Position numbers and translations under genes: made by a program
Assembly (NCBI GenBank): GCA_036504895.1
Contig: DASXUJ010000137.1
Span: forward strand, 1 to 34,387
Source: Syntrophorhabdaceae bacterium
GTDB taxonomy: Bacteria; Desulfobacterota; Syntrophorhabdia; Syntrophorhabdales; Syntrophorhabdaceae
DNA: 34,387 nt
Reading direction: 5' to 3'
The notes under the pieces: generated by a model
Seen by the model: only the letters and a program-made list of their open reading frames with translations
Databases searched by the model: none
What the model was told of the DNA's origin: nothing
Shown here: positions 2 to 21,398 of the stretch, piece after piece
Layout of the letters: each line of letters opens with the position of its first letter
Position numbering within the stretch: position 1 is the first letter of the stretch

Positions 2-1210
2 GCCCTTTCGAAGCTACGAATACAAAACACGACTGTCGCCGGCGGGCCCGGAAGGACGAGAAAAAGGATCTTTACCTGGGCCGTGGCGGCGCTCCTCCTT
101 ATCCTTGCGGGTGTCTCCTATTCGAAGGGACTCTTTTCCGCGGCAACGAACGTGGAAGTGGCGACCGTGGCGCTTATTTATCCTTCCCAAACCTTTACCC
201 TCCTCAATGCGAGCGGATATGTGGTGGCCCAGCGAAAGGCCGCGGTAGCTTCGAAAATTACGGGCAGGCTTACCTCTCTTACCGTGGAGGAAGGAAGCAG
301 GATCAAAAAGGGGGAGGTCATCGCCCAATTGGAGAACGATGACATCGCCGCCGCAAAGCGGCAGGCCGCGGCCAACCTCGAAGTTGCCCGTTTCAACCTG
401 GAGCAGGCAAAAGCGGAGCTCTATGACGCAAAACGAAATTTCGAGCGCGAAAGGACGCTGCTCGCCCAGGAGTTCACCACGCGTGCCTCCTTCGACGCGG
501 CAGAGGCACGTTATAAAAAGGCGGAGGCAGGGGTTTCCGGGGCAGAGGCGGGAAAGAACGCGAGTGCCGCCGCATTGCGCTCCGCTGAAGCGAGCCTCGA
601 ATATACCTACATACGGGCGCCCTTCGACGCGGTGGTTCTTACGAAAAACGCCGATGTGGGGGACATTGTGACGCCTTTGGGGGCCGCGGCCAACGCCAAG
701 GCTTCGGCGGTGACTATTGCGGACATGGCCTCCCTCATGGTCGAGGCGGATGTCTCGGAGTCGAATCTCACGAAAGTGAAACTGGGGCAGCCGTGCGAAA
801 TGCAGCTCGACGCCATTCCCAACGAGCGGCTCCGTGGCGTCGTGCATATGATCGTACCGACAGCCGACAGGAGTAAGGCGACCGTCATGGTCAAAGTGCG
901 ATTCCTCCAAAAGGACCCGCGCATTCTGCCCGAAATGAGCGCGAAAGTAGCCTTTCTTTCGAGGGAGCCGAGCGCCTCGGATGAAACGCCCCGCATCAGC
1001 GCACCTCAGAGGTCAATCCGCGACGGAAGGATCGGTCCCACCCTCCTTCTCATCAAAGGCAATAAAATAGAGGAGACGCCGGTTACGACGGGCGCCCGTT
1101 TGGGCGATATGATCGAGATTAAGAGCGGCGCAAAGGCAGGGGAAAGGGTCGTGGTAAATCCTCCCGCGGGACTCAGGCAGGGCTCCAAAGTCAAGTTTGC
1201 GGAGCAGTAG
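2..1210 (+). CDS. Periplasmic adaptor (HlyD/MacA-like) of an ABC exporter, 5' end outside window
   Basis: This is a membrane-fusion/adaptor protein that links an inner-membrane ABC exporter to an outer-membrane channel. The frame is open from base 2 with no stop, so the gene begins upstream. The GTG at 83 is internal, because the residues before it (KRIFTW) are the basic flank of the N-terminal membrane anchor whose core is AALLLILAGV. After the anchor come a lipoyl/barrel-sandwich half (SKITGRLTSLTVEEGSRIKKGE), a long alanine- and glutamate-rich coiled-coil hairpin, the second lipoyl half (YIRAPFDAVVL) and a beta-barrel (EADVSESNLTKVKLGQ). The stop codon shares its last base with the GTG start of the ATPase gene, so the genes are translationally coupled. 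The family is certain. The exported substrate is unknown. Confidence 0.9.
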   Translation, partial: ALSKLRIQNTTVAGGPGRTRKRIFTWAVAALLLILAGVSYSKGLFSAATNVEVATVALIYPSQTFTLLNASGYVVAQRKAAVASKITGRLTSLTVEEGSRIKKGEVIAQLENDDIAAAKRQAAANLEVARFNLEQAKAELYDAKRNFERERTLLAQEFTTRASFDAAEARYKKAEAGVSGAEAGKNASAAALRSAEASLEYTYIRAPFDAVVLTKNADVGDIVTPLGAAANAKASAVTIADMASLMVEADVSESNLTKVKLGQPCEMQLDAIPNERLRGVVHMIVPTADRSKATVMVKVRFLQKDPRILPEMSAKVAFLSREPSASDETPRISAPQRSIRDGRIGPTLLLIKGNKIEETPVTTGARLGDMIEIKSGAKAGERVVVNPPAGLRQGSKVKFAEQ

Positions 1211-1929
1211 TGCTTATGAAGGATACGGACCCGGTGCGACCGATCGTTGAAATTCGTAACATCTACAAATCCTATCTCAGGGGAAGCCAGGTGGTGCCCG
1301 TGTTGAGGGATGTTACCTTCGACATACCGGAAGGTGAATTCCTCGCCCTCATGGGCCCATCGGGGTCGGGCAAGAGCACGCTCCTCAATCTCATTGCGGG
1401 CATCGACAAGGCGGATGAAGGCGCCATTATGGTGGAAGGCGTCGATATCACCCGCCTCAAGGAGGTGGAGCTTGCCCAATGGCGCGCCACCCATGTAGGC
1501 TTCATCTTCCAGTTCTACAACTTGATACCCGTGCTTACCGCGTATGAGAACGTGGAGTTGCCGCTGCTGCTTACGTGGCTCAAGAAAAAGGAGCGACGCG
1601 AGCACGTGGAGATGGCCCTCAGGGTCGTGGGCCTGTCGGACCGGGTGGAGCACTATCCCGGCCAGCTCTCCGGCGGTCAGCAGCAGAGGGTCGCCATTGC
1701 ACGGGCCATTGTCACCGATCCGACCATACTGGTGGCCGACGAGCCGACCGGTGACCTCGACAGGGTCTCGGCGGAAGAGATCATGGCCCTCATGGACCGG
1801 CTGAACCGGGAATCGGGAAAGACCATCATCATGGTTACCCACGATCCCCGGGCTGCGGGAAAGGCCCACACGGTCCGGCATCTCGATAAAGGTGTGCTCG
1901 ACTATGCACGTTCTCAAGATAGTCTTTAA
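1210..1929 (+). CDS. ABC transporter ATP-binding protein (MacB/LolD family)
   Basis: Cytoplasmic ATPase that powers the two FtsX-type permeases encoded downstream. Walker A (GPSGSGKST) lies near residues 49-57. It is followed by the Q-loop (HVGFIFQFYNL), the ABC signature (LSGGQQQRVAIARA) and Walker B with the catalytic Glu (ILVADEPTGDLD), and then the H-loop (VTHDPRA). At 239 residues it has the normal size for the LolD/MacB/FtsE-like clade. The start is GTG at 1210, overlapping the adaptor stop. An ATG at 1216 is an alternative start two codons on. Its 3' end overlaps the first permease gene by 26 bases. This clade usually drives mechanotransmission or lipoprotein and toxin export rather than substrate import. 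That is family knowledge, and the cargo cannot be read here. Confidence 0.95.
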   Translation: MLMKDTDPVRPIVEIRNIYKSYLRGSQVVPVLRDVTFDIPEGEFLALMGPSGSGKSTLLNLIAGIDKADEGAIMVEGVDITRLKEVELAQWRATHVGFIFQFYNLIPVLTAYENVELPLLLTWLKKKERREHVEMALRVVGLSDRVEHYPGQLSGGQQQRVAIARAIVTDPTILVADEPTGDLDRVSAEEIMALMDRLNRESGKTIIMVTHDPRAAGKAHTVRHLDKGVLDYARSQDSL

Positions 1930-3061
1930 GAACGCCTTTCGTCATAAGCTTCGCACGGGCCTCACAATTCTCTCTATCACCATTGCAATCCTCGCCTTCG
2001 GCCTTTTACGGACCGTGATCCATGCATGGTACGCCGGCGTGGAGGCGTCGGCCGTAAACCGGCTCGTAAGCAGGAACTCCATATCCATGATCTTTCCCCT
2101 CCCTCTCTCATATAAGGAAAAGATTCGCCAGATAGAAGGCGTAAAGACTGTCTCGTGGGGGGGCTGGTTCGGGGGCATTTATATCGACGAGAAGAATTTC
2201 TTCGCCAATTTTGCGGTCGACGCGAAAACATATCTGGAGCTCTATCCCGAGTATATAGTGCCCCCGGACCAGAAAGCCGCTTTTTTGAAAGACCGCAAGG
2301 GTTTTGTGGCGGGAAGGAAACTCGCGGCCCGTTATGGATGGCATATCGGCGACACTATCGTGCTCAAGGGAACGATCTACCCCGGCACCTGGGAATTCGT
2401 GCTCCGGGGGATCTATACGGGCAGGGACAAGGGTACCGACGAAAGCGTTTTTTTCTTCAATTGGGATTACCTCAATGAGGAAGTAAGGAAGAAGACGCCG
2501 GGGCGGGCAGATCAGGTCGGCTTCTACATGATCGGCGTAACCAATCCCGATCTCGCGGCGGACGTAGCCGCTCGGATCGACGGCTCCTTCAAGAATTCCC
2601 TGGCGGAAACCCTCACGGAAACGGAAAAGGCCTTCCAGCTCGGCTTCGTCTCCATGTCCGACGCCATAATCACCGCAATCAAGCTCGTCTCTTTCGTGGT
2701 GATCGTGATCATTCTCGCGGTGGTGGCAAACACCATGGCCATGACCGCCCGGGAACGGATGGGGGAATATGCCGTCTTCAAGACCCTCGGATTCGGGGCC
2801 CGCCACCTCGCGGGACTCATCTTCGGTGAATCTATTTTTATTACCCTTGTAGGTGCGGCGTGTGGCGTGGCCCTCACCTTCCCCGTGGCCGACGCCTTCG
2901 GCCGGGCCATGGGACAATATTTTCCGACTTTCAACGTGACCGGGGAGACCGTGGTAATGGACGTGATCACGGCCCTTATCGTCGGCATCCTTGCGGCCAT
3001 CGTGCCCACGGTGCGTGCGATAAAGGTAAGGATCGCCGACGGGCTGAGGAGCATCGGCTAA
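1904..3061 (+). CDS. ABC transporter permease, FtsX/MacB type (first copy)
   Basis: Inner-membrane permease of the MacB/LolC type. It has an N-terminal membrane helix after the basic stretch MHVLKIVFKNAFRHKLRTG, then a large periplasmic MacB-core-like domain of about 200 residues, then three C-terminal helices (LVSFVVIVIILAVVANTMAM, SIFITLVGAACGVALTF, VVMDVITALIVGILAAIVP). The conserved cytoplasmic coupling motif MTARERMGEYAVFKTLGF is present. ATG 1904 is preferred over the GTG at 1892, because the additional residues MCST add nothing to the conserved N-terminus. The gene overlaps the ATPase gene by 26 bases and abuts the second permease, whose ATG follows the stop directly. The operon probably forms a heterodimeric ABC exporter with the second permease. 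Confidence 0.93.
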   Translation: MHVLKIVFKNAFRHKLRTGLTILSITIAILAFGLLRTVIHAWYAGVEASAVNRLVSRNSISMIFPLPLSYKEKIRQIEGVKTVSWGGWFGGIYIDEKNFFANFAVDAKTYLELYPEYIVPPDQKAAFLKDRKGFVAGRKLAARYGWHIGDTIVLKGTIYPGTWEFVLRGIYTGRDKGTDESVFFFNWDYLNEEVRKKTPGRADQVGFYMIGVTNPDLAADVAARIDGSFKNSLAETLTETEKAFQLGFVSMSDAIITAIKLVSFVVIVIILAVVANTMAMTARERMGEYAVFKTLGFGARHLAGLIFGESIFITLVGAACGVALTFPVADAFGRAMGQYFPTFNVTGETVVMDVITALIVGILAAIVPTVRAIKVRIADGLRSIG

Positions 3062-4228
3062 ATGATCGTGCCTTTTTCCTATAGCCTCCGGAACCTCTGG
3101 ACCCGCCGTCTCACCACGGTGCTCACCGCATCCGGCATGGCACTCGTGGTATTCGTCTTTGCCTCGATCCTCATGCTCGCCGAGGGATTACAGAAGACAC
3201 TCGTGGAAACAGGCTCCTATGATAATGCAATCGTGATCAGAAAAGCCTCGGCATCGGAGGTCCAGAGCGGCATCGAGCGGAAGCAGGCGTCTATCGTGGA
3301 AACCGACCCGGAGATCGCGATAGCAGGCGACGGCAAACCGCTGGTGGCCAAAGAGATGGTGGTCCTCATCGGCCTGCCGAAAAGGGGAAGCAATAAACAA
3401 TCAAACGTGGTGATAAGGGGCATCACGGACAGATCGCTCATGCTTCGGCCTCAAATCAAGCTGATCGAAGGCAGGATGCCCACACCGGGCTCTGCCGAGG
3501 TTATGGCGGGCTTGAGCATCGCCAAGCGCTTTAACGGGGGCAACATGGGCGAAACGCTCCGCTTCGGCATGAGGGAATGGAGGATCGTGGGGATCTTCGA
3601 TGCAGGGAACACGGGATTTACCTCCGAAATATGGGGCGACGTGGACCAGCTCATGCAGGCCTTCCGCCGTCCCGTCTATTCGTCCGTCACGTTCAAGCTG
3701 CGCGACTCCTCCCGATTCGGCGAGGTGAAGAGACGCATAGAGGGCGACCCGAGGCTCACTCTCGAGGCCAAAAGGGAGACAAAATATTATCTCGAACAGT
3801 CGGAGGTAATGGCCAAGTTCCTCCGCATCCTCGGCATATCTCTCACCGTGATCTTTTCTCTCGGGGCAATTATCGGGGCCATGATCACCATGTATACCGC
3901 GGTAGCCACACGGGTGGGTGAGATAGGGACCCTTCGGGCCCTGGGCTTCCAGAGAACGAGCATCCTGACCGCCTTTCTCATGGAGTCACTCCTCCTCGGT
4001 CTGGCCGGAGGACTGGCGGGACTCTTCTTTTCCTCCTTCCTGCAGCTCATCACCATCTCCACCCTGAACTTTCAGACTTTTTCAGAGCTCGCCTTCTCCT
4101 TCACCCTTACCCCGGGGATCATCCTCCGCGCCCTCGCCTTTGCCCTCATCATGGGATTCGTGGGAGGGGTCCTGCCGGCGGTCCGGGCAGCTCATATGAA
4201 TATCGTCGACGCACTGAGATCGGGTTGA
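3062..4228 (+). CDS. ABC transporter permease, FtsX/MacB type (second copy)
   Basis: This is the second permease of the exporter, 388 residues, with the same four-helix FtsX architecture. The N-terminal helix (TTVLTASGMALVVFVFASIL) is followed by a periplasmic domain to about residue 255. The C-terminal helices surround the motif ATRVGEIGTLRALGFQRTSI, the equivalent of the coupling loop in the first permease. The two permeases are clearly divergent in sequence, which argues for a heterodimer, as in LolCE, rather than a MacB homodimer. The ATG follows the preceding stop with no gap. A promoter-like sequence and a change of gene type follow, so this probably ends the export operon. The substrate is unknown. 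Confidence 0.93.
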   Translation: MIVPFSYSLRNLWTRRLTTVLTASGMALVVFVFASILMLAEGLQKTLVETGSYDNAIVIRKASASEVQSGIERKQASIVETDPEIAIAGDGKPLVAKEMVVLIGLPKRGSNKQSNVVIRGITDRSLMLRPQIKLIEGRMPTPGSAEVMAGLSIAKRFNGGNMGETLRFGMREWRIVGIFDAGNTGFTSEIWGDVDQLMQAFRRPVYSSVTFKLRDSSRFGEVKRRIEGDPRLTLEAKRETKYYLEQSEVMAKFLRILGISLTVIFSLGAIIGAMITMYTAVATRVGEIGTLRALGFQRTSILTAFLMESLLLGLAGGLAGLFFSSFLQLITISTLNFQTFSELAFSFTLTPGIILRALAFALIMGFVGGVLPAVRAAHMNIVDALRSG

Positions 4229-4282: not shown

Positions 4283-4318
4283 TTAGGAAATGTGACCATT
4301 TCGCGAGGAGGTTTGATA

Positions 4319-6292
4319 ATGGGGGCGAGGAAGAGAAACGTGGGAGGCTGCCATTCGACCTGTTTCATAATAACATGCATTATGATGGCTCTTTTCGCGG
4401 GCGATGCGCTCTCGGCATCGATCACGTCCGCCACGTGGAACGCGGGCACGTCCGTTCTCAAGGTGCTGGGGACGGGCTGGAACAGGGGGATTACGGTGGC
4501 AATAAGCGATACCGCCAACGGGACCCTTCTCGGCACCGCCAGAACGAACGGAACGGGGAATTTTGCCTTTTCCGCCAGAATCCTTGCCGGCGCGCCGTGC
4601 AATGTGGAGGCGAGGTCCGGCGCCTTCGTCGTTACGAGCGCAGTTACGAATGCACCCGCCATCTGCGCGGCCCCCTCGACCCTCAGGGTGTTCGCTTTCA
4701 ACAACCTGGGCATGCACTGCTACGACAACGACTATTCGGTTTTCTCCATTCTTCCGCCTTTTAACACGGTGAATGCCCAGGTAATAAGGGCAGGGGCGAG
4801 CCCGGTGATCTTGAATAACACCCAGGCGAGCGTAGTCTATTCGGCAGTCGCCGACAGAACCAGGTCGATCAATACGACGAGTGAGGGCAAAACCAATTTT
4901 TGGTCCTATGTGGCCGGCCTTTTCGGCGTAACCCTGCCTACAGACCAGGGCCTCACAGGATCGAGGATGCCCGGGGCCTCCAATGGGGCCCAGTCTTTTT
5001 TGGCCTTCGACCCGGTGATCAAATGGTTTACCGCGGAAGGTATCCCCATTACGTCTTATGACGATCGGATGAAAAAGAACCCCTACCCCCTCATGAATAT
5101 ACAGCCCTACGAAACAGGAAGCGCCGTAATTCCTGCGCCGCTCTCCGTAGTGCTTCCCGTCTCCGATGAAATGCACTGCAGTGACTGCCATAACAACGGG
5201 GGAAAAGGAGCGAACAATGCAGTTAGGAAGAAATACGGGATTACCTCATGGAGCAGGAGCGCTTCCTCCAAAGTGCGTTACCGCGAGAACATCCTGATTC
5301 TCCACGATGCCACGAGGGGGACTTCCCTCCTGACCGCTACACCCGTCCTTTGCGCCTCGTGTCATTATTCCCCCGCCCTCGACCTCACCGGCGCCGGGCC
5401 GACCGGCAATCAGATCGGTAAATCGATGCTTTCCATGGCGGTTCACGGCAAGCACGGCAAGGCAGTCGACGGGACCATTCCCTCCGCAACCAAGCCCGCC
5501 ATCATCCCCGACACGGGAGTAGCGGCGTGCTACAAATGCCATCCCGGAAGTGTGACCAAATGTCTGCGTGGCGCTATGGGTGCGGCAGGTATCACCTGTC
5601 AAAACTGTCACGGCGGCATGCTCGCCGTGGGGGGCGCCTATGCGGCCAGGACACCGTGGGTAAACGAGCCGAAGTGCCAGTCCTGCCATACAGGCGATGC
5701 GATGAGCCATCAGGGCCCATCCATCCGATCGCGCATTGCCTATGACCCGGGCGATCCGGCCGCCACCCCTCTCACCGCAACAAACCAGCGTTTCGCGGAA
5801 AATGCGGCTGCCCTTTACCGGAACAGCACCGGTCATGGCGGTTTGGCGTGTCAGGCGTGCCATGGGAGCACCCATGCCGAATGGCCCACCGGGACCTCCC
5901 TTGCCAATGATAATCTTGCGGCAAAGCAGATCCAGGGCCATGCAGGTCCTGTGATCGAATGCGTCGTGTGCCATGGGAGCGGGCAGTCTCGGACCACCAA
6001 TGGGCCCCACGGGCTGCACAATGTGAACAGTGCAAGCTGGAACACAGGCCACGGCTCCTTTTTTGAGTCAAACCAGGCCGGCTGCCAGGCGTGCCACGGC
6101 GCCACTCTTCAGGGCACGGTACTTTCACGGGCGGCTGCGAACCGACTGCTCATGACGGATGACAACAGAACGGTCTATGTCGCCAAGGGGAGCCCGGTCC
6201 CCTGTACCTTATGCCATGAAAACCCCCTGAATGGAGGAGGAAACAGCCTTTCCCGCATCTCTTCCCCAAGAAAAATTAGGAAAATACAGTAA
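4319..6292 (+). CDS. Secreted nine-haem cytochrome c with N-terminal Ig-like domain
   Basis: A 657-residue multihaem c-type cytochrome, presumably periplasmic or surface-exposed and acting in electron transfer beyond the inner membrane. Nine CXXCH haem-binding motifs start at about residues 287, 345, 404, 427, 453, 511, 548, 589 and 629. A signal peptide (FIITCIMMALFAGDALSA) is followed by a beta-rich, Thr/Asn/Gly-rich domain of about 90 residues. Next comes a conserved section with LRVFAFNNLGMHCYDNDYSV, and the haem region fills the C-terminal half. ATG 4319 is chosen because GAGGAGG lies at 4305-4311. An upstream ATG at 4292 would put a poor extension before the signal peptide. Similar LGMHCYD-containing cytochromes occur in Geobacter-like bacteria, from memory. 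The partner and the electron acceptor are unknown. Confidence 0.93.
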   Translation: MGARKRNVGGCHSTCFIITCIMMALFAGDALSASITSATWNAGTSVLKVLGTGWNRGITVAISDTANGTLLGTARTNGTGNFAFSARILAGAPCNVEARSGAFVVTSAVTNAPAICAAPSTLRVFAFNNLGMHCYDNDYSVFSILPPFNTVNAQVIRAGASPVILNNTQASVVYSAVADRTRSINTTSEGKTNFWSYVAGLFGVTLPTDQGLTGSRMPGASNGAQSFLAFDPVIKWFTAEGIPITSYDDRMKKNPYPLMNIQPYETGSAVIPAPLSVVLPVSDEMHCSDCHNNGGKGANNAVRKKYGITSWSRSASSKVRYRENILILHDATRGTSLLTATPVLCASCHYSPALDLTGAGPTGNQIGKSMLSMAVHGKHGKAVDGTIPSATKPAIIPDTGVAACYKCHPGSVTKCLRGAMGAAGITCQNCHGGMLAVGGAYAARTPWVNEPKCQSCHTGDAMSHQGPSIRSRIAYDPGDPAATPLTATNQRFAENAAALYRNSTGHGGLACQACHGSTHAEWPTGTSLANDNLAAKQIQGHAGPVIECVVCHGSGQSRTTNGPHGLHNVNSASWNTGHGSFFESNQAGCQACHGATLQGTVLSRAAANRLLMTDDNRTVYVAKGSPVPCTLCHENPLNGGGNSLSRISSPRKIRKIQ

Positions 6293-14773: not shown

Positions 14774-14802
14774 TTGCCCTACGGCAGCTCCTGTGATACC
14801 CT
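14774..14802 (+). promoter_or_regulatory. Promoter of the riboswitch-controlled efflux operon
   Basis: TTGCCC (14774-14779), 17 bases, and TACCCT (14797-14802) with TG one base upstream as an extended -10. The predicted start, about 14808-14811, coincides with the first base of the riboswitch aptamer. That supports both calls. The 190 bases between this promoter and the divergent hpf promoter hold no gene. Confidence 0.65.
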
Positions 14803-14810
14803 ATTTTCCG

Positions 14811-14906
14811 AAAAGGGGAGTAGCTTTCATCGGCAGTAACGTCATGACGTCTGTGCGAGCAGACCGGGCTGCCGGTTAGGTAACGCTAACAAGCAAGACC
14901 TTTACC
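14811..14906 (+). ncRNA. yybP-ykoY manganese riboswitch
   Basis: The aptamer has all elements of the yybP-ykoY class. P1 is AAAGG (14812-14816) with CCUUU (14899-14903). The L1 sequence GGGGAGUAG starts at 14815. P2 is GCUU (14824-14827) with AAGC (14891-14894). P3 is CGGCAG (14831-14836) with CUGCCG (14869-14874), enclosing the conserved L3 core CGUCA (14840-14844) and a distal GUCUG/CAGAC hairpin. A further hairpin is GUUAG (14875-14879) with CUAAC (14886-14890). The class binds Mn2+ between L1 and L3, and binding normally turns on exporter genes such as mntP, TerC-family and UPF0016 genes. Here the downstream operon is an RND heavy-metal efflux system. Assigned from memory of the consensus, without a covariance search. 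Confidence 0.9.
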
Positions 14907-14931
14907 ATATAAAATGGTGAGGTCTTTTTTT
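14896..14931 (+). terminator. Riboswitch expression-platform terminator
   Basis: AGACCU (14896-14901) pairs with AGGUCU (14920-14925), and ACCAU (14904-14908) pairs with AUGGU (14914-14918). There is a small internal loop, and seven U follow at 14925-14931. The 5' arm shares bases with the 3' strand of riboswitch P1, so ligand-stabilised P1 and the terminator are mutually exclusive. This predicts an ON switch. Confidence 0.88.
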
Positions 14932-15375
14932 ATGGCAAGAGCGAACAGCTTTCCCCTGCTATACACAAAAAAATGTGACCCTTCTATGAAACAGACAATA
15001 TCCTGTTATTCAATCCGTATTCTCGTTGCCTTCATGCTTATGGTGAGTTTTACCCTGCCCGTCGTGGAAAACCTCACCGCCACTACCGATATCGATGTGG
15101 GAGGCACCCATTACGACGCGGGCCAGGAATGGCTCGGTCTCTATCTCTCCCTCACCCATACCGGCTCATCGGGCAGCGCACATGGAACCGCCGACTCCCG
15201 GGACCCCCAAGAGAATCCCTTCTTCGATTCCTGCGACGGGGACGTCGACGGGGAATGGCTGCCCATTACCCAGGCTCACCGGGTCTATTTTACCTCTGCC
15301 CGGCTTTTTTTCGAAAAAGATTCTCCACGCTCGCCCACCCTTGCCTCCTCCCTTTACAGACCCCCCAGGAGCTGA
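14932..15375 (+). CDS. Small secreted or membrane-anchored protein, first gene behind the Mn riboswitch
   Basis: Unrecognised protein of 147 residues (130 if it starts at ATG 14986). From the second Met it shows a short basic region and a hydrophobic stretch (IRILVAFMLMVSFTLPVV), so it is secreted or anchored. The mature part has scattered His, an acidic patch with one Cys (FFDSCDGDVDGEW), and a C-terminus ending in SSLYRPPRS. ATG 14932 is preferred because GUGAGG in the 3' arm of the terminator hairpin lies about nine bases upstream. ATG 14986 has no clear ribosome binding site but gives a more normal signal peptide. Its place just before the CzcC-type gene resembles the position of the small periplasmic CzcI proteins. 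No sequence homology is claimed. Confidence 0.65.
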   Translation: MARANSFPLLYTKKCDPSMKQTISCYSIRILVAFMLMVSFTLPVVENLTATTDIDVGGTHYDAGQEWLGLYLSLTHTGSSGSAHGTADSRDPQENPFFDSCDGDVDGEWLPITQAHRVYFTSARLFFEKDSPRSPTLASSLYRPPRS

Positions 15376-15491
15376 AGCACCTCTCTCCTTTCGTTTTCGC
15401 CCGATCTTCAGGCTCTTCGGCACCCGCCTGAATGAGCGCGAAATGATTACATTATGCTATCCGTGTATGAAACAGTTGAGGAGGCGGCTTC

Positions 15492-16721
15492 ATGTCCCAC
15501 ATCATCCCATTTGTTTTTTTCATCTTAATTTCCGCAGGGTTTGCCCATGCCGTCACCATGACCGAGGCCGTGGGAATAGGGTTTGCAAATAACCCCGATC
15601 TCATGGCATTAAGGCAGGAGGCGGAATTGGCGAAGGCCCAGCTCCAAAAGGCGCGGCTCCTGCTGCCTGCCAATCCTCTGATTGCCGGTACCCTGTCGAA
15701 AAAGGAGAAACCCTCTGAGGCAGGGACGGGGAATTATACCAACTACAGCCTTACCCTCTCGCAGGAATTCGAGGTCGCGGGCCAAAGGGGCGTGAGGATT
15801 GGGCTTGCGGAGAAGAACCTTTCCAGGGTCGGCTTTCAGATCAGGGATCGGGAAAGGTTGCTCCGATATGCGATAAAAGATGCCTTTGCCCGGGCGATTT
15901 CTCTCAAGAACCGGGAAGAGCTGACCCGGAGGGTAGTTGGTTTTCAGGAAGAGCTGGTGGACTTCACCCGTATAAAATACAGGGCCGGAAGCGTTTCAGG
16001 CCTCGAGGTGAACCTCTCCGAGATAGAGCTCGGAAAAGCAAAAAAAGATCTTTTTTCGGTTGAACGGGAATTGAAGGAGGCACTCCTCGGCCTTCAGGGA
16101 CTCATGGGAGTAAGGTCAAATCCCGCGTTCACCGTTCATGGAGAGCTTTCTCCCGAAAAATTCCGTGTGCCTGCAAAAGAGGAGCTCATGAAGCGATCGG
16201 CGGAAATGAGGCCCGATATGAAGGTGTCGGTCGCCGAAGTCGATATGTCGGAGCGCGCCATCGATCTGGCGAAGCGGGAGGCCATACCGAACGTGGTGCT
16301 GGGCGGATTCCAGACCAGGGATGAGGAGAGGTTCGACAGGGGCGTCCTCATGTCCGTGGCAATTCCGCTCTTCGACAGAAGACAGGCGGAGAGAAAAAGG
16401 GCCGAGGCGCTGGCCCTCCAGGCACGGATCAGGCGCTCGGGCCTCGAAAAAACGCTCGAGCGGGAGATCGATGATGCATATAACAATCTCTCCCTTACCT
16501 TAAGAGAGCTTGCCCTATTTCAGAAGGAGATAATGAATAAGTCGATGGAAACCCTAAGCCTTCTCAACTTCGCCTATAAGGAAGGTAAAATCAGTTTTTT
16601 CGAGGTTAGGACAGCCCAGAAGGATACGCTGGAGATCCAGTTTGCCTATCTCGATACGGTATTGCAGGCGGAGCGATGGCTTCACGCCGTCGAACGCGCC
16701 GTGGGGGGTGAGATAGAATGA
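15492..16721 (+). CDS. Outer-membrane efflux channel of the TolC family (CzcC-like)
   Basis: Outer-membrane factor of a tripartite metal efflux system, 409 residues. The signal peptide is MSHIIPFVFFILISAGFAHA. It is followed by two tandem OEP repeats rich in long amphipathic helices (ADGYG-type loops are absent). The pattern MTEAVGIGFANNPDLMALRQEAELAKAQLQKARLLLPANP begins repeat one, and ERAIDLAKREAIPNVVLGG begins repeat two, as in CzcC/CusC. The ATG has GAGGAGG upstream at 15479-15485. The stop overlaps the adaptor start (ATGA), so the CzcC, CzcB and CzcA genes form one translation unit. It lies 116 bases after the small secreted gene, with no terminator between. Confidence 0.93.
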   Translation: MSHIIPFVFFILISAGFAHAVTMTEAVGIGFANNPDLMALRQEAELAKAQLQKARLLLPANPLIAGTLSKKEKPSEAGTGNYTNYSLTLSQEFEVAGQRGVRIGLAEKNLSRVGFQIRDRERLLRYAIKDAFARAISLKNREELTRRVVGFQEELVDFTRIKYRAGSVSGLEVNLSEIELGKAKKDLFSVERELKEALLGLQGLMGVRSNPAFTVHGELSPEKFRVPAKEELMKRSAEMRPDMKVSVAEVDMSERAIDLAKREAIPNVVLGGFQTRDEERFDRGVLMSVAIPLFDRRQAERKRAEALALQARIRRSGLEKTLEREIDDAYNNLSLTLRELALFQKEIMNKSMETLSLLNFAYKEGKISFFEVRTAQKDTLEIQFAYLDTVLQAERWLHAVERAVGGEIE

Positions 16722-17935
16722 GGAAGTTCTCCTGGAATAGAAAAAAAGTCGCTGTCCTTGTCGCTCTGTCTTTTTTACTTGTATCGGCGGTTGCGGCAAC
16801 GATTCTCGCACGAAAGGGATCATCAAAACACCGCGATTCTTACGCGAGGGAGGCGAAGAAGGAAGAACCGGGTATGGTGGTCCTTGCCGCCGAAAAACTG
16901 GCCGCATCGGGCATAGAGATCATGCAGATCAGGCGTGAGCAGACCCGGGCGCCCCTTACGGCGACGGCGGCCATAGAGATCAATGCCGACAGTTCCTCCC
17001 GAATAAGCTCGAGAGTAACGGGCCGGATCGTACACCTCATGGTTTCCCAGGGAGACCGGGTGAAAGCAGGCCGGCCTCTGGCTTCGATGGATACGGTGGA
17101 ACTCGACCAGATATGGTCGGAGTACCGGAAAAATTCCGGCAGGTATCAGCTGGCCCTGAAGAACCTGAAGCGCGAGGAGGCACTTTTCGAAAAGAATGTG
17201 GCCCCGGAGAAAGATGTGCTCAAGGCAAAACAGGACCTGAGTGAGGCCGAGGCGGACCTCACTCTTTCCAGGGAAAGGTTCCGACTTCTCGGGGTCGATG
17301 TAAACGCGATAGAGATCCAGAAAAACGGCGAGGCAGCAAAAAGGCCCCTCATACCCATTATATCGAGCGTGAGCGGGGTTGTTATCGAGAAACCGGTCAC
17401 CCTGGGAGAGGTGGTGAATCCTGAAAAACTGCTTTTTATCGTGGCCGATCTTTCGACCCTCTGGGTCATGGTCGATATCTATGAAAAAGACGTATCGAGG
17501 CTCAGGGCGGGCGCGGTGGTCACCATATCGGTCAGTGCCTTTCCCAACAGGCCGTTCAGGGGAAAAATATCGTATATCGGCGATGTCGTGGACGTGCGCA
17601 CGAGGACCGTAAAGGCCCGTGTGACCATCGACAACCACGACGGCGTGCTGAAACCCGGCATGTTCGCCACGGTCTCCATCGATTCCGAAAAAGACGCCCC
17701 CACGGAAATGGTGATCTCCGTCCCCGAAGAGTGCATCCTTATCGACGGCTCGGACAGGTATGTCTTCGTCCGGGTGGGCGAGGGCAGGTTCAAGAGGAAG
17801 GATGTAACCCCGGGCAGGGCCTTCGGCAAAAAAGTCGAGATATCGGCGGGTCTCGATGAAGGGGATATGATCGTGACAAAAGGAACTTTCCCCCTCAAGT
17901 CGGAGTACAAAAAACAGATGGTTCAGGGTCACTAA
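16718..17935 (+). CDS. RND efflux periplasmic adaptor (CzcB-like)
   Basis: Membrane-fusion protein of 405 residues that connects the inner-membrane pump with the outer-membrane channel. An N-terminal membrane anchor (VAVLVALSFLLVSAVAATIL) precedes the lipoyl domain (SSRISSRVTGRIVHLMVSQGDRVKAGRPL). A coiled-coil hairpin runs from about residue 125 to 190. The second lipoyl half contains PIISSVSGVVIEKPVTLGEVV. The barrel and membrane-proximal domains (DIYEKDVSRLRAGAVV, DGVLKPGMFATVSI) complete it. The N-terminal Met-rich copper site of CusB and the His-rich extensions of some CzcB proteins are not seen, so the metal cannot be read from this protein. Confidence 0.94.
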   Translation: MRKFSWNRKKVAVLVALSFLLVSAVAATILARKGSSKHRDSYAREAKKEEPGMVVLAAEKLAASGIEIMQIRREQTRAPLTATAAIEINADSSSRISSRVTGRIVHLMVSQGDRVKAGRPLASMDTVELDQIWSEYRKNSGRYQLALKNLKREEALFEKNVAPEKDVLKAKQDLSEAEADLTLSRERFRLLGVDVNAIEIQKNGEAAKRPLIPIISSVSGVVIEKPVTLGEVVNPEKLLFIVADLSTLWVMVDIYEKDVSRLRAGAVVTISVSAFPNRPFRGKISYIGDVVDVRTRTVKARVTIDNHDGVLKPGMFATVSIDSEKDAPTEMVISVPEECILIDGSDRYVFVRVGEGRFKRKDVTPGRAFGKKVEISAGLDEGDMIVTKGTFPLKSEYKKQMVQGH

Positions 17936-17945
17936 GGGGGAGGGA

Positions 17946-20900
17946 ATGCAGAAAATCATCGATCTCGTGCTGAAGCAGCGCCTTCTCATCCTCCTCGGAG
18001 TGGCTGTCCTTGTGGGAACGGGCCTCTATTGCTACAAAACCATCTCCATCGATGCCTTCCCCGACGTTACCAACATCCAGGTCCAGATCATATCCCAAAC
18101 CCCGGGCATGTCGCCCCTTGAAACCGAAAAATTCGTGACTGCGCCCATCGAGCTTCAGATGAGCGGCCTCACGGGCCTCAAGGAGACAAGGTCGATCTCG
18201 AAATACGGGCTCTCTCTCGTGACCCTCATCTTCGAAGACAGCGTGAATGTCTACTTCGCGCGCCAGCTCGTTCTGGAGCGGATGATCGAGGTGAGGGAGA
18301 AGCTTCCCTCCGGGGTGGAGCCCACATTCGGGCCCATCTCGACAGGCCTCGGTGAGATATTCCAGTATACCCTCGAAGGCAAGGGGAAGAGCCGGATGGA
18401 GCTCAGGACCCTTCAGGACTGGGTGGTCAAGAAAATCCTGAAGTCCGTACCCGGCGTGATCGAGGTAAACTCCCATGGGGGGGATGTCAAGGAGTACCAG
18501 GTCATCGTAAGCCCCGAGCAGCTGATCAAATACAACCTTTCCCTGCGGCAGATATTCGAGGCGGTGGCGCGCAACAATGCCAATGCAAGCGGAGCTTACA
18601 TGAACATAGGGGGAGAACGGTACGTGATCCGGGGCCTGGGCCTGCTCAAGAACCTTGAAGATATCGGGAATATCGTGGTGGCTTCGTCCAGGGGCACCCC
18701 TATTTTCCTGAGAGATATTGCAGAGCTTAAACTCGGTCCGGCCTTCAGCCCCGGGGCAGCGGTCAAAAACGGGGAGGAAGCAGCCGCGGGAATCGTCCTT
18801 CTCGTAAAGGGCGGCAATTCCATGGTGGTAATACAGAAGATAAAGGAGAAGATCAGGGAGCTTCAAAAAGCCCTTCCCGAGAATGTGAGGCTCGTGCCCT
18901 TTTACGACCGGTCCGATCTCGTGAAAAAAGTCCTCTCTACCATTTCGAGGGCTTTGGCCGAAGGCTCCATTCTCGTCATTATCGTACTCTTCGTCTTCCT
19001 GGGCAGCGTGAGAACGGCCCTTGTGGTCACCTTTTCCCTTCCCCTCACCGTGCTTCTCACCTTCATCATCATGAGGGTTTCAGGACTCACCGCCAATCTC
19101 ATGTCTTTGGGCGGTCTGGCCATCGCCATCGGTATGATCGTGGACGGAGCGGTCGTCATCGCGGAGAACGTGTACCGCCAGCTCTCCGAAAGGAAAGGGG
19201 AGTCGAGGCTTCACATTGTGGCCGAGGCATCGAAGGAGGTAATCCGGCCCGTCTTCTTCGGCATCCTCGTGATCACTATTGTCTTTCTCCCTCTCTTCAG
19301 CCTTACCGATGTGGAAGGGAAGATGTTCATCCCGCTGGCGCTGACCGTGGTGATAGCCCTCGTCAGCTCCCTGGTTGTCTCTTTCCTGTTCGTCCCCGTC
19401 TTCGCCCTCCTCATACTGAAACCGGGGCAGGAAAAGGATACCAGGCTCCTCGCCTGGATAAAAAAGAGGTTCCGGCCCCTCCTCGAGGTGGCGCTCCTCA
19501 ACCGGAAAAAGATCGCCGTGGCGGCCTGCGCGGCCCTCGCCTTAAGCCTCTGTCTCCTGCCTTTCATAGGCAGGGAGTTCATGCCCACCCTGCAGGAAGG
19601 CTCTCTCGTGATCCAGCCCATTCGCTTTCCCAGCGTCTCACTCGAGGAATCGATAGAGATCGAGAAGAGGTTCCACAGAATACTCTTTTCATTCCCTGAA
19701 GTAGAGTCGGTCGTCTCCAAGATCGGAGGCTCGGGGATAGCCACCGACCCCCAGGGCCCTGAAATCTCGGACCCTATTATCACATTGAAACCCCGCTCCA
19801 AGTGGAAGACCGCGAAGACCCAGGAGGGCCTTATCGCCAAAATGCGGGAGCGCCTCGAATCGTCGATGCCCGGCGTAGGATTCAATTTCACCCAACCCAT
19901 CGCGCTCAGGGTGGATGAGCTGATCTCGGGGGTAAAATCGCAGATCGCCATAAAGATCTACGGCGATGACCTCGACGTGCTCAAAGAGAAGGCGGAAGAA
20001 ATCGCAAAGATCATGTCCGCCGTCAGGGGGACGGCTGATTTGAGGATCGAACAGGTCTCCGGACAGCCTTACCTCAATATCGATTTCGACCGGAAGGCCA
20101 CGGCGCGTTACGGCATCAATATATCGGACGTACAGGAGATCATAGAGACCGCGGTACGGGGCGGCCGGCCCACGGAGCTCCTGGAGGGAGACCGGAGATT
20201 TGCAGTCAGGATCCGCTTCCCCGAAGAAAAACGGAATAATGCCGAGGCGATCGGCAAGCTCCTCGTCCCGGTCCAGGAAGGCCGGGGAGTACCTCTCAAC
20301 CTACTGGCTGACCTCTCCCTTATTGAAGGACCCAATCAGATAAGCAGGGAAAACGGGCAAAGAAGGATTGTCATCGAGTGCAACCTGAGAGACAGGGACA
20401 TGGGGAGCTTTGTGGAAGAGGCGCAGGAAAAAATCGCCGCCCGGGTCCAACTGCCCGTCGGATATACCCTCAAGTGGGGCGGCCAGTTCGAAAACCAGCA
20501 GCGCGCCATGAAGCGTCTCGTCATTATCGTGCCCATAACCCTGCTCCTCATGTTCCTTCTTCTCTACTTCACCTTCAATTCCGTGAGAAATGCCCTGCTT
20601 ATCATCCTGAATATCCCCTTTGCATTGATCGGAGGGATTGTGGCCCTCTTCCTTTCGGGCCAGTACCTGAGCGTACCCGCATCGGTGGGGTTCATCGCCC
20701 TTTTCGGTGTGGCTGCCTTGAACGGCATCGTACTGGTTTCCTGCCTCAACCAATTGAGAAGGGAGGGCATGGCACTGGAGGCGGCGGTACGAAAGGGCAC
20801 GGAGCTCAGACTGAGACCTGTTCTCATGACGGCGTCCGTGACGCTCCTCGGCCTCGTCCCTCTCCTCCTCTCAACGGGAATCGGCTCGGAAATACAGAAG

Positions 20901-21032
20901 CCTCTCGCGGTGGTGGTGGTGGGCGGATTGATCACTTCCACGCTTCTCACCATCGTCGTGCTCCCCACCTTCTACAAGTGGTTTGAAGAAGGACAGGAGG
21001 ATAAGGAAAGCAGGGAACATGAAGACGTATAA
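17946..21032 (+). CDS. Heavy-metal efflux RND pump (CzcA/CusA family)
   Basis: Proton-driven inner-membrane pump of the HME-RND family, 1028 residues with twelve predicted helices and two large periplasmic loops. The TM4 region reads LGGLAIAIGMIVDGAVVIAENV. Asp400 and Glu407 correspond to proton-relay residues Asp408 and Glu415 of CzcA, while Ala394 replaces the CzcA Asp402 of the DFG motif. The periplasmic segment QPIALRVDELISGVKSQ lacks the Met of CusA-type sites. So it is neither classical CzcA (Zn/Co/Cd) nor CusA (Cu/Ag). A Mn2+ riboswitch upstream makes manganese or a related divalent ion a candidate. The ATG has GGGGGAGGG immediately upstream and lies 10 bases after the adaptor stop. 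Confidence 0.95.
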   Translation: MQKIIDLVLKQRLLILLGVAVLVGTGLYCYKTISIDAFPDVTNIQVQIISQTPGMSPLETEKFVTAPIELQMSGLTGLKETRSISKYGLSLVTLIFEDSVNVYFARQLVLERMIEVREKLPSGVEPTFGPISTGLGEIFQYTLEGKGKSRMELRTLQDWVVKKILKSVPGVIEVNSHGGDVKEYQVIVSPEQLIKYNLSLRQIFEAVARNNANASGAYMNIGGERYVIRGLGLLKNLEDIGNIVVASSRGTPIFLRDIAELKLGPAFSPGAAVKNGEEAAAGIVLLVKGGNSMVVIQKIKEKIRELQKALPENVRLVPFYDRSDLVKKVLSTISRALAEGSILVIIVLFVFLGSVRTALVVTFSLPLTVLLTFIIMRVSGLTANLMSLGGLAIAIGMIVDGAVVIAENVYRQLSERKGESRLHIVAEASKEVIRPVFFGILVITIVFLPLFSLTDVEGKMFIPLALTVVIALVSSLVVSFLFVPVFALLILKPGQEKDTRLLAWIKKRFRPLLEVALLNRKKIAVAACAALALSLCLLPFIGREFMPTLQEGSLVIQPIRFPSVSLEESIEIEKRFHRILFSFPEVESVVSKIGGSGIATDPQGPEISDPIITLKPRSKWKTAKTQEGLIAKMRERLESSMPGVGFNFTQPIALRVDELISGVKSQIAIKIYGDDLDVLKEKAEEIAKIMSAVRGTADLRIEQVSGQPYLNIDFDRKATARYGINISDVQEIIETAVRGGRPTELLEGDRRFAVRIRFPEEKRNNAEAIGKLLVPVQEGRGVPLNLLADLSLIEGPNQISRENGQRRIVIECNLRDRDMGSFVEEAQEKIAARVQLPVGYTLKWGGQFENQQRAMKRLVIIVPITLLLMFLLLYFTFNSVRNALLIILNIPFALIGGIVALFLSGQYLSVPASVGFIALFGVAALNGIVLVSCLNQLRREGMALEAAVRKGTELRLRPVLMTASVTLLGLVPLLLSTGIGSEIQKPLAVVVVGGLITSTLLTIVVLPTFYKWFEEGQEDKESREHEDV

Positions 21033-21056
21033 AATAAGCCAGTACGAGGAGGGCCG

Positions 21057-21398
21057 ATGAAAGAGATCGTAGCGATACTCCAGCCTTTTATGCTTGGAAA
21101 AGTGGCCTGGGCGCTCCAGAATATCCCCGCCTTCCCGGGCATGACCGTCACCAAAGTGCAGGGATTCGGACGGGGGAGGGCGAAAGGGGCGCCTCACACA
21201 TTCGTGGAGGACCTGATCGAATATGTGGCGAAAGTTAAAATAGAGGTTATCGCGAATGACGACCAGGTGGAAGAGATCCTCTCCGCGATTATCCGTACTG
21301 CCCACACGGGCCACAAGGGCGACGGGAAGATATTCGTCCTGCCCGTGGAAAGGACGGTCCGGATCAGGACCGGCGACTTCGATGAGGCGGCAGTATAG
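21057..21398 (+). CDS. PII-like regulatory protein of an RND efflux operon (PII-NG type)
   Basis: P-II family protein of 113 residues, 24 bases behind the pump gene with GAGGAGGG before its ATG. It keeps the PII core (TKVQGFGRGR, KVKIEVIANDDQVEEILSAI) and the ATP-binding C-terminal block (GDGKIFVLPVERTVRIRTG). In the T-loop the uridylylated Tyr51 of GlnB/GlnK aligns with Asp and Tyr46 aligns with His, and the region reads APHTFVEDLIEY, so GlnD modification is excluded. No amtB or glnA is adjacent. Proteins of this kind next to CusABC/CzcABC genes have been called PII-NG in the literature (from memory). It may sense nucleotides or metal and modulate the pump, which is inference. Confidence 0.85.
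   Translation: MKEIVAILQPFMLGKVAWALQNIPAFPGMTVTKVQGFGRGRAKGAPHTFVEDLIEYVAKVKIEVIANDDQVEEILSAIIRTAHTGHKGDGKIFVLPVERTVRIRTGDFDEAAV

Follow-up and report, generated by a model that had tools for sequence, protein, structure and literature searches.

A yybP-ykoY-type Mn2+ riboswitch without arm P2 in front of a tripartite HME-RND and PII operon in a Syntrophorhabdaceae genome

The locus and its features

The window analysed here is a stretch of 34,387 nucleotides from a Syntrophorhabdaceae bacterium (assembly GCA_036504895.1, contig DASXUJ010000137.1, positions 1 to 34,387). Its + strand carries an RNA leader followed by a small ORF, the three genes of an efflux pump and a gene for a PII-family protein. 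The features are as follows.

14774..14802, +: promoter-like site (TTGCCC, 17 nt, TGA-TACCCT with an extended -10), read from the sequence, about 10 nt before the aptamer
14812..14903, +: predicted P2-less yybP-ykoY (Mn2+) riboswitch aptamer, from a leave-window-out covariance model and 45-sequence covariation
14812-14816/14899-14903, +: P1.1 of the aptamer
14815-14824 (GGGGAGUAGC) and 14893-14900 (GCAAGACC), +: L1 core
14831-14836/14869-14874, +: P3
14840-14844 (CGUCA) and 14863-14867 (ACCGG), +: L3
14875-14879/14886-14890, +: P4
14895..14931, +: intrinsic terminator that uses the 3' strand of P1.1/L1 as its 5' arm, so that terminator and aptamer exclude each other
14932..15375, +: small ORF, start probably at 14989, N-terminal signal-like segment, C-terminus LYRPPRS, weak coding score
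15492..16721, +: outer-membrane efflux protein of CzcC/CusC type (PF02321, E 1.2e-37)
16718..17935, +: periplasmic adaptor of CzcB/CusB type (PF16576, HlyD_D23, E 1.4e-51; TIGR01730 above cut-off)
17946..21032, +: HME-type RND permease of the CzcA/CusA family (PF00873, ACR_tran, E 1e-296; TIGR00914)
21057..21398, +: PII-family protein, PII-NG-like by context (PF00543, P-II, E 3.9e-24)

The gene order proposed by an earlier sequence-only reading was recovered by the domain searches: the OEP, HlyD_D23, ACR_tran and P-II domains follow one another in a tight series on the + strand, behind a secreted-type ORF. The small ORF has the best coding score among the frames of its stretch, yet a weak one. 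It belongs to no family, has no homologue among the fetched loci, and when relatives were sought by motif ahead of other czcC genes, only a loose C-terminal resemblance (L047) came up. Elsewhere in the window, an HlyD adaptor with MacB/FtsX-type permeases lies at 83-4228 and a multihaem cytochrome with an MtrC/MtrF-like domain at 4292-6292.

Aptamer structure, class assignment and switching

The RNA element can be read in the sequence as AAAGGGGAGUAGC (14812-14824), CGUCA, ACCGG and GCAAGACCUUU (14893-14903), and contains both conserved cores of the yybP-ykoY class, L1 (GGGGAGUAGC ... GCAAGACC) and L3 (CGUCA ... ACCGG). The last base of CGUCA, A14844, is what we take to be the equivalent of A41, the Mn2+ contact of the L. 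lactis structure. The linker from P1.2 to P3 is 6 nt long and arm P2 is absent, so that the junction has three arms, whereas the yybP-ykoY crystal structures display a four-way junction with arm P2 (PMC11087558). Arm P2 is likewise missing from about 36 of the 45 homologues, among them leaders of UPF0016 and P-type ATPase genes, a fraction that is biased because the model used to collect them (R1) was built from P2-less copies. Since these homologues share the loss, we regard the window aptamer as a variant form within the class. The description of a complete yybP-ykoY aptamer holds for the class and for the intact core, and fails for arm P2. Overall, the element shares with yybP-ykoY (RF00080) the L1 and L3 cores including CGUCA, the helices P1.1, P3 and P4, an overlapping terminator and sister copies in a metal-exporter context; it differs by its three-way junction, by lying below Rfam detection and by its tripartite RND target.

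A scan with RF00080 had been set beforehand as a refuting test of the class assignment. No match was obtained in the window at the gathering threshold or in the whole genome at E 0.001, nor was the family listed in permissive scans of the aptamer region. However, the model (Rfam 15; 177 positions, with no P1 pairs drawn) is insensitive in this clade: it reports a single one of 20 sister loci supported by covariance models, and that one below gathering. Because the other 19 were missed as well, the negative result is a property of the model and is uninformative. RF00080 also misses P2-bearing leaders before TerC and HtpX, and gives 19 bits to the P-type ATPase leader of the same genome. As most of the yybP-ykoY-type RNAs tested in the phylum escape it, the class is under-annotated there.

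Purpose-built covariance models were used next to RF00080. Model R2 was trained on three P-type ATPase leaders only (from the same genome, a genome of the same family and another genome of the phylum), leaving the window out. It matched the window with 70.8 bits and an E-value of 6.2e-19, and additionally matched UPF0016, TerC, HtpX and MntP leaders; TerC, HtpX and MntP leaders possessing P2 were recovered by the purpose-built models too. In the alignment of the 45 homologues to model R1, which is fitted to the structure and whose related sequences inflate the shuffle control, double changes occurred in 22 of the 24 pairs, 209 cells carried them against 76 in shuffles, and 90% of the cells were paired against 25-53% after sliding the partners, an operation that destroys the signal. 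None of 500 shuffles reached any of these measures. The covariation is convincing in view of the slide control and of how large the effect is, and helices P1.1, P1.2, P3 and P4 are all kept by it. A search of the same genome with the core pattern returned two places, against none with the reversed control; the second lies before a P-type ATPase and has an overlapping terminator of the same kind. Finally, BLASTN aligned the aptamer region to a P-type ATPase leader (L159) with 78% identity over 102 nt (2e-16). Given the leave-window-out match and the covarying pairs, the window aptamer almost certainly belongs to the yybP-ykoY class, as first proposed, and Mn2+ is likely its ligand.

The overlapping terminator and the ON-type architecture that had been suggested were both recovered: the hairpin at 14895-14931 consumes the 3' strand of P1.1, pairing the ACCUUUACC strand with GGUGAGGU and ending in seven U. 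Minimum free energy folding gave -42.1 kcal/mol for the free RNA, which contains the terminator, versus -33.9 kcal/mol with the aptamer helices forced. That the terminator is favoured in the free fold agrees with the expectation for a ligand-dependent ON switch. At low cytoplasmic Mn2+, the 3' strand of P1.1 would enter the terminator and transcription would stop near 14931; at high Mn2+, docking of L1 with L3 would hold P1.1 and the polymerase would read through into the pump genes. The promoter-like site at 14774-14802 is placed as in the sister leaders, which have TTGACA/TATAAT-like sites at the same position; it scores too low to pass the consensus scan.

Targets, pump and PII protein

Model R1 was searched in 395 genomes of the phylum and in 46 genomes of the order, yielding 43 matches in 34 of the former and 41 matches in 24 of the latter. 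The first recognisable targets were named at 45 loci, by Pfam check for examples and by sequence motif for the remainder. They comprise 14 P-type ATPases, 12 UPF0016/GDT1 proteins, 9 HtpX, 4 TerC, 3 Na/Ca exchangers, 2 unassigned genes and a single RND pump, that of the window. In the order set, P-type ATPases or UPF0016 follow at 23 of the 24 inspected loci, the last one being truncated, and no RND parts were present at any of the 24. The genome of the window has three switches, located before a P-type ATPase (contig C3), before a UPF0016 gene (C85) and before the OEP-HlyD-CzcA-PII operon of the window. The two others are of the same leader type as that of the window, but P-type ATPases and UPF0016 proteins are single-protein inner-membrane exporters, unlike the window pump. 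A Mn2+ riboswitch has been reported upstream of 328 of 333 UPF0016 genes (PMC7380456).

The genome search proposed earlier, for switches before HME-RND operons, thus returned the window only: none was found at the other loci with a named target, in the order set or before about 80 CzcA relatives. The pairing is a single instance that no relative shares, and the idea of a widespread system is not upheld. The statement that the class has no known RND target stands, none being found among the sister loci or in the literature searched, whose coverage of the founding papers of the class was incomplete. The locus is a known switch class joined to a known operon type in a new pairing, seen once.

The searches also returned leaders with other surroundings. 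In several genomes of the phylum, HtpX-like M48 membrane proteases stand behind yybP-ykoY-type leaders, at L012, L013, L014, L177, L182 and L184, and further at L185, L189, L191, L194 and L197; we found no description of HtpX as a target of the class. Transporters of the Na/Ca-exchanger family follow the riboswitch at L172, L173 and L181. Six genomes of one genus have tandem aptamer matches on the same strand, about 120-300 nt apart (G016:C23:103337-103684, G010:C234, G011:C53, G013:C46, G009:C137 and G008:C239), standing before P-type ATPases at the inspected loci. A small zinc-ribbon ORF (CPxC...CPxCxGxWLDxGEL, zf-TFIIB-like) is located near or directly after the riboswitch at L160, L164, L174, L192 and L194. 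A pattern scan of viral contigs gave one match (L127), judged to be due to chance.

The window permease scores 1212 bits against TIGR00914, for a curated cut-off of 701, and shares with the CusCBA, CzcCBA and Zne HME-RND pumps this permease family and the three-gene organisation. Its TM4 reads AIGMIVDGAVVIAEN, that is AIG...DGA...AEN instead of DFG...DGA...VEN. The DFG of the HME1/HME2 (Zn/Co/Cd/Ni) motif DFGX3DGAX3VEN (PMC3637150) is absent, the first Asp being missing, and the CusA methionines M573, M623 and M672 are replaced by Q557, I607 and E658. Since both the CusA Met triad and the first Asp of HME1/2 are missing, transport of Cu(I)/Ag(I) appears unlikely from the residues. No residue of the window CzcA points to Mn2+, and we give slightly less than even chances to Mn2+ being the physiological substrate. 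A CzcCBA copy 83% identical to the pump is encoded in the same genome (C121:1-9000, L123), behind a histidine kinase and a response regulator and without riboswitch, on a contig that ends within CzcA. The other relatives of the pump reach at most about 57% identity over part of the length and none has a switch. A relative of the pump from the same genus (L124, G032:C23) is broken up into several reading frames, which would fit decay or misassembly.

In GlnB, residues Q39 and Y51 serve 2-oxoglutarate sensing and uridylylation, respectively. Aligned to GlnB (1pil), the PII protein of the window lacks the equivalents of both and keeps the ATP-site motifs TGxxGDGKIF and RIRTG. Because Q39 and Y51 are missing, 2-oxoglutarate sensing and uridylylation are doubtful for this protein. 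One mark of PII-NG is a PF00543 domain whose gene adjoins an HME-RND operon, and the window has it; this arrangement was already described (PMC7726332). The CzcA relatives in L044, L046 and L050 have a PII gene behind them too, so that the link between PII and pump is independent of the switch. L046 has no riboswitch; in L044 and L050 the upstream sequence is too short to tell. In Geobacter sulfurreducens, the PII-NG gene comes first in the operon with czcABC (GSU2134-2137), which answers to Co2+ and Fur (PMC7726332). The PII gene adjoins the CzcCBA genes in both organisms, but in the window it comes last and a riboswitch leads.

Interpretation

Building on the aptamer homology and covarying structure, the mutually exclusive terminator and the gene order and strand, all established by the computation, our preferred reading is that a P2-less yybP-ykoY Mn2+ riboswitch probably controls the tripartite HME-RND and PII operon by transcription read-through. 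The targets of the sister leaders, mostly metal-transport genes, and the promoter position and overlapping terminator, which are as in the sisters, support it. Against it count the single instance, the gap ORF without homologues, the silence of RF00080, the CzcA residues, none of which points to Mn2+, the other metals known for related pumps and the predicted nature of Mn2+ binding. In the simplest account, a leader of the P-type ATPase type would have been duplicated or captured before the RND-PII operon, adding a Mn2+-induced envelope pump to two inner-membrane exporters. With two more switches in the same genome, before the P-type ATPase and UPF0016 genes, the likely logic is a regulon for export in two stages. 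Mn2+ would reach the periplasm through the single-membrane exporters, the RND pump would take Mn2+, or divalent metals generally, out of the envelope, and PII would probably tune the pump to the ATP/ADP status. We advance only tentatively the full form of this proposal, namely a dedicated RND Mn2+ exporter, PII-gated and switched by a three-way-junction yybP-ykoY RNA, forming the outer step of a regulon with three switches (P-type ATPase, UPF0016, RND). To our knowledge, the Mn2+ exporters established so far take the metal across the inner membrane only. A trans-envelope pump under a Mn2+ switch would, if real, be a Gram-negative route for clearing periplasmic Mn2+, and the substrate question of this RND subgroup would become testable via its switch.

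The most serious competitor, a possible though not favoured explanation, is that the switch is real and Mn2+ a proxy, the pump exporting other divalent metals (e.g. Fe, Co, Ni or Zn) after capture behind a duplicated P-type ATPase leader. P-type ATPase leaders are indeed the nearest to the window aptamer, the 83% identical pump is placed under a two-component pair instead of a switch, and Co2+ stress induces the G. sulfurreducens operon (PMC7726332). However, every core base is kept, so that selection probably maintains the switch together with the target it now has, and the two other switches of the genome drive families known for Mn2+ export.

The leader could also be stranded, terminating or driving a short transcript or the small ORF only, with a separate promoter and regulator serving the pump. 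The distance of 560 nt from the terminator to czcC fits this, as does the ORF between them, weakly coding and without homologues. Yet 350-1100 nt separate switch and ATPase gene in the sisters L160, L163 and L164, some of these gaps being longer, the window switch has an intact core and lies on the same strand as the pump, and no P-type ATPase remnant lies between the two. A separate promoter in 15376-15491, which the sequence-only reading held would detach the pump from the switch, did not appear: a consensus scan, a weak kind of evidence, found no sigma70-like site there on the + strand. We hold it likely that the window switch controls the pump operon, and the stranded leader improbable.

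An assembly or binning artefact, suggested by a draft genome of 138 contigs and by a pairing seen once, is very unlikely for a junction within a 34 kb contig with ordinary genes on either side. Lastly, a chance resemblance to yybP-ykoY RNA, for which the RF00080 negative could be invoked, is refuted by the leave-window-out model and further opposed by the reversed-pattern control, the covariation and the insensitivity of RF00080.
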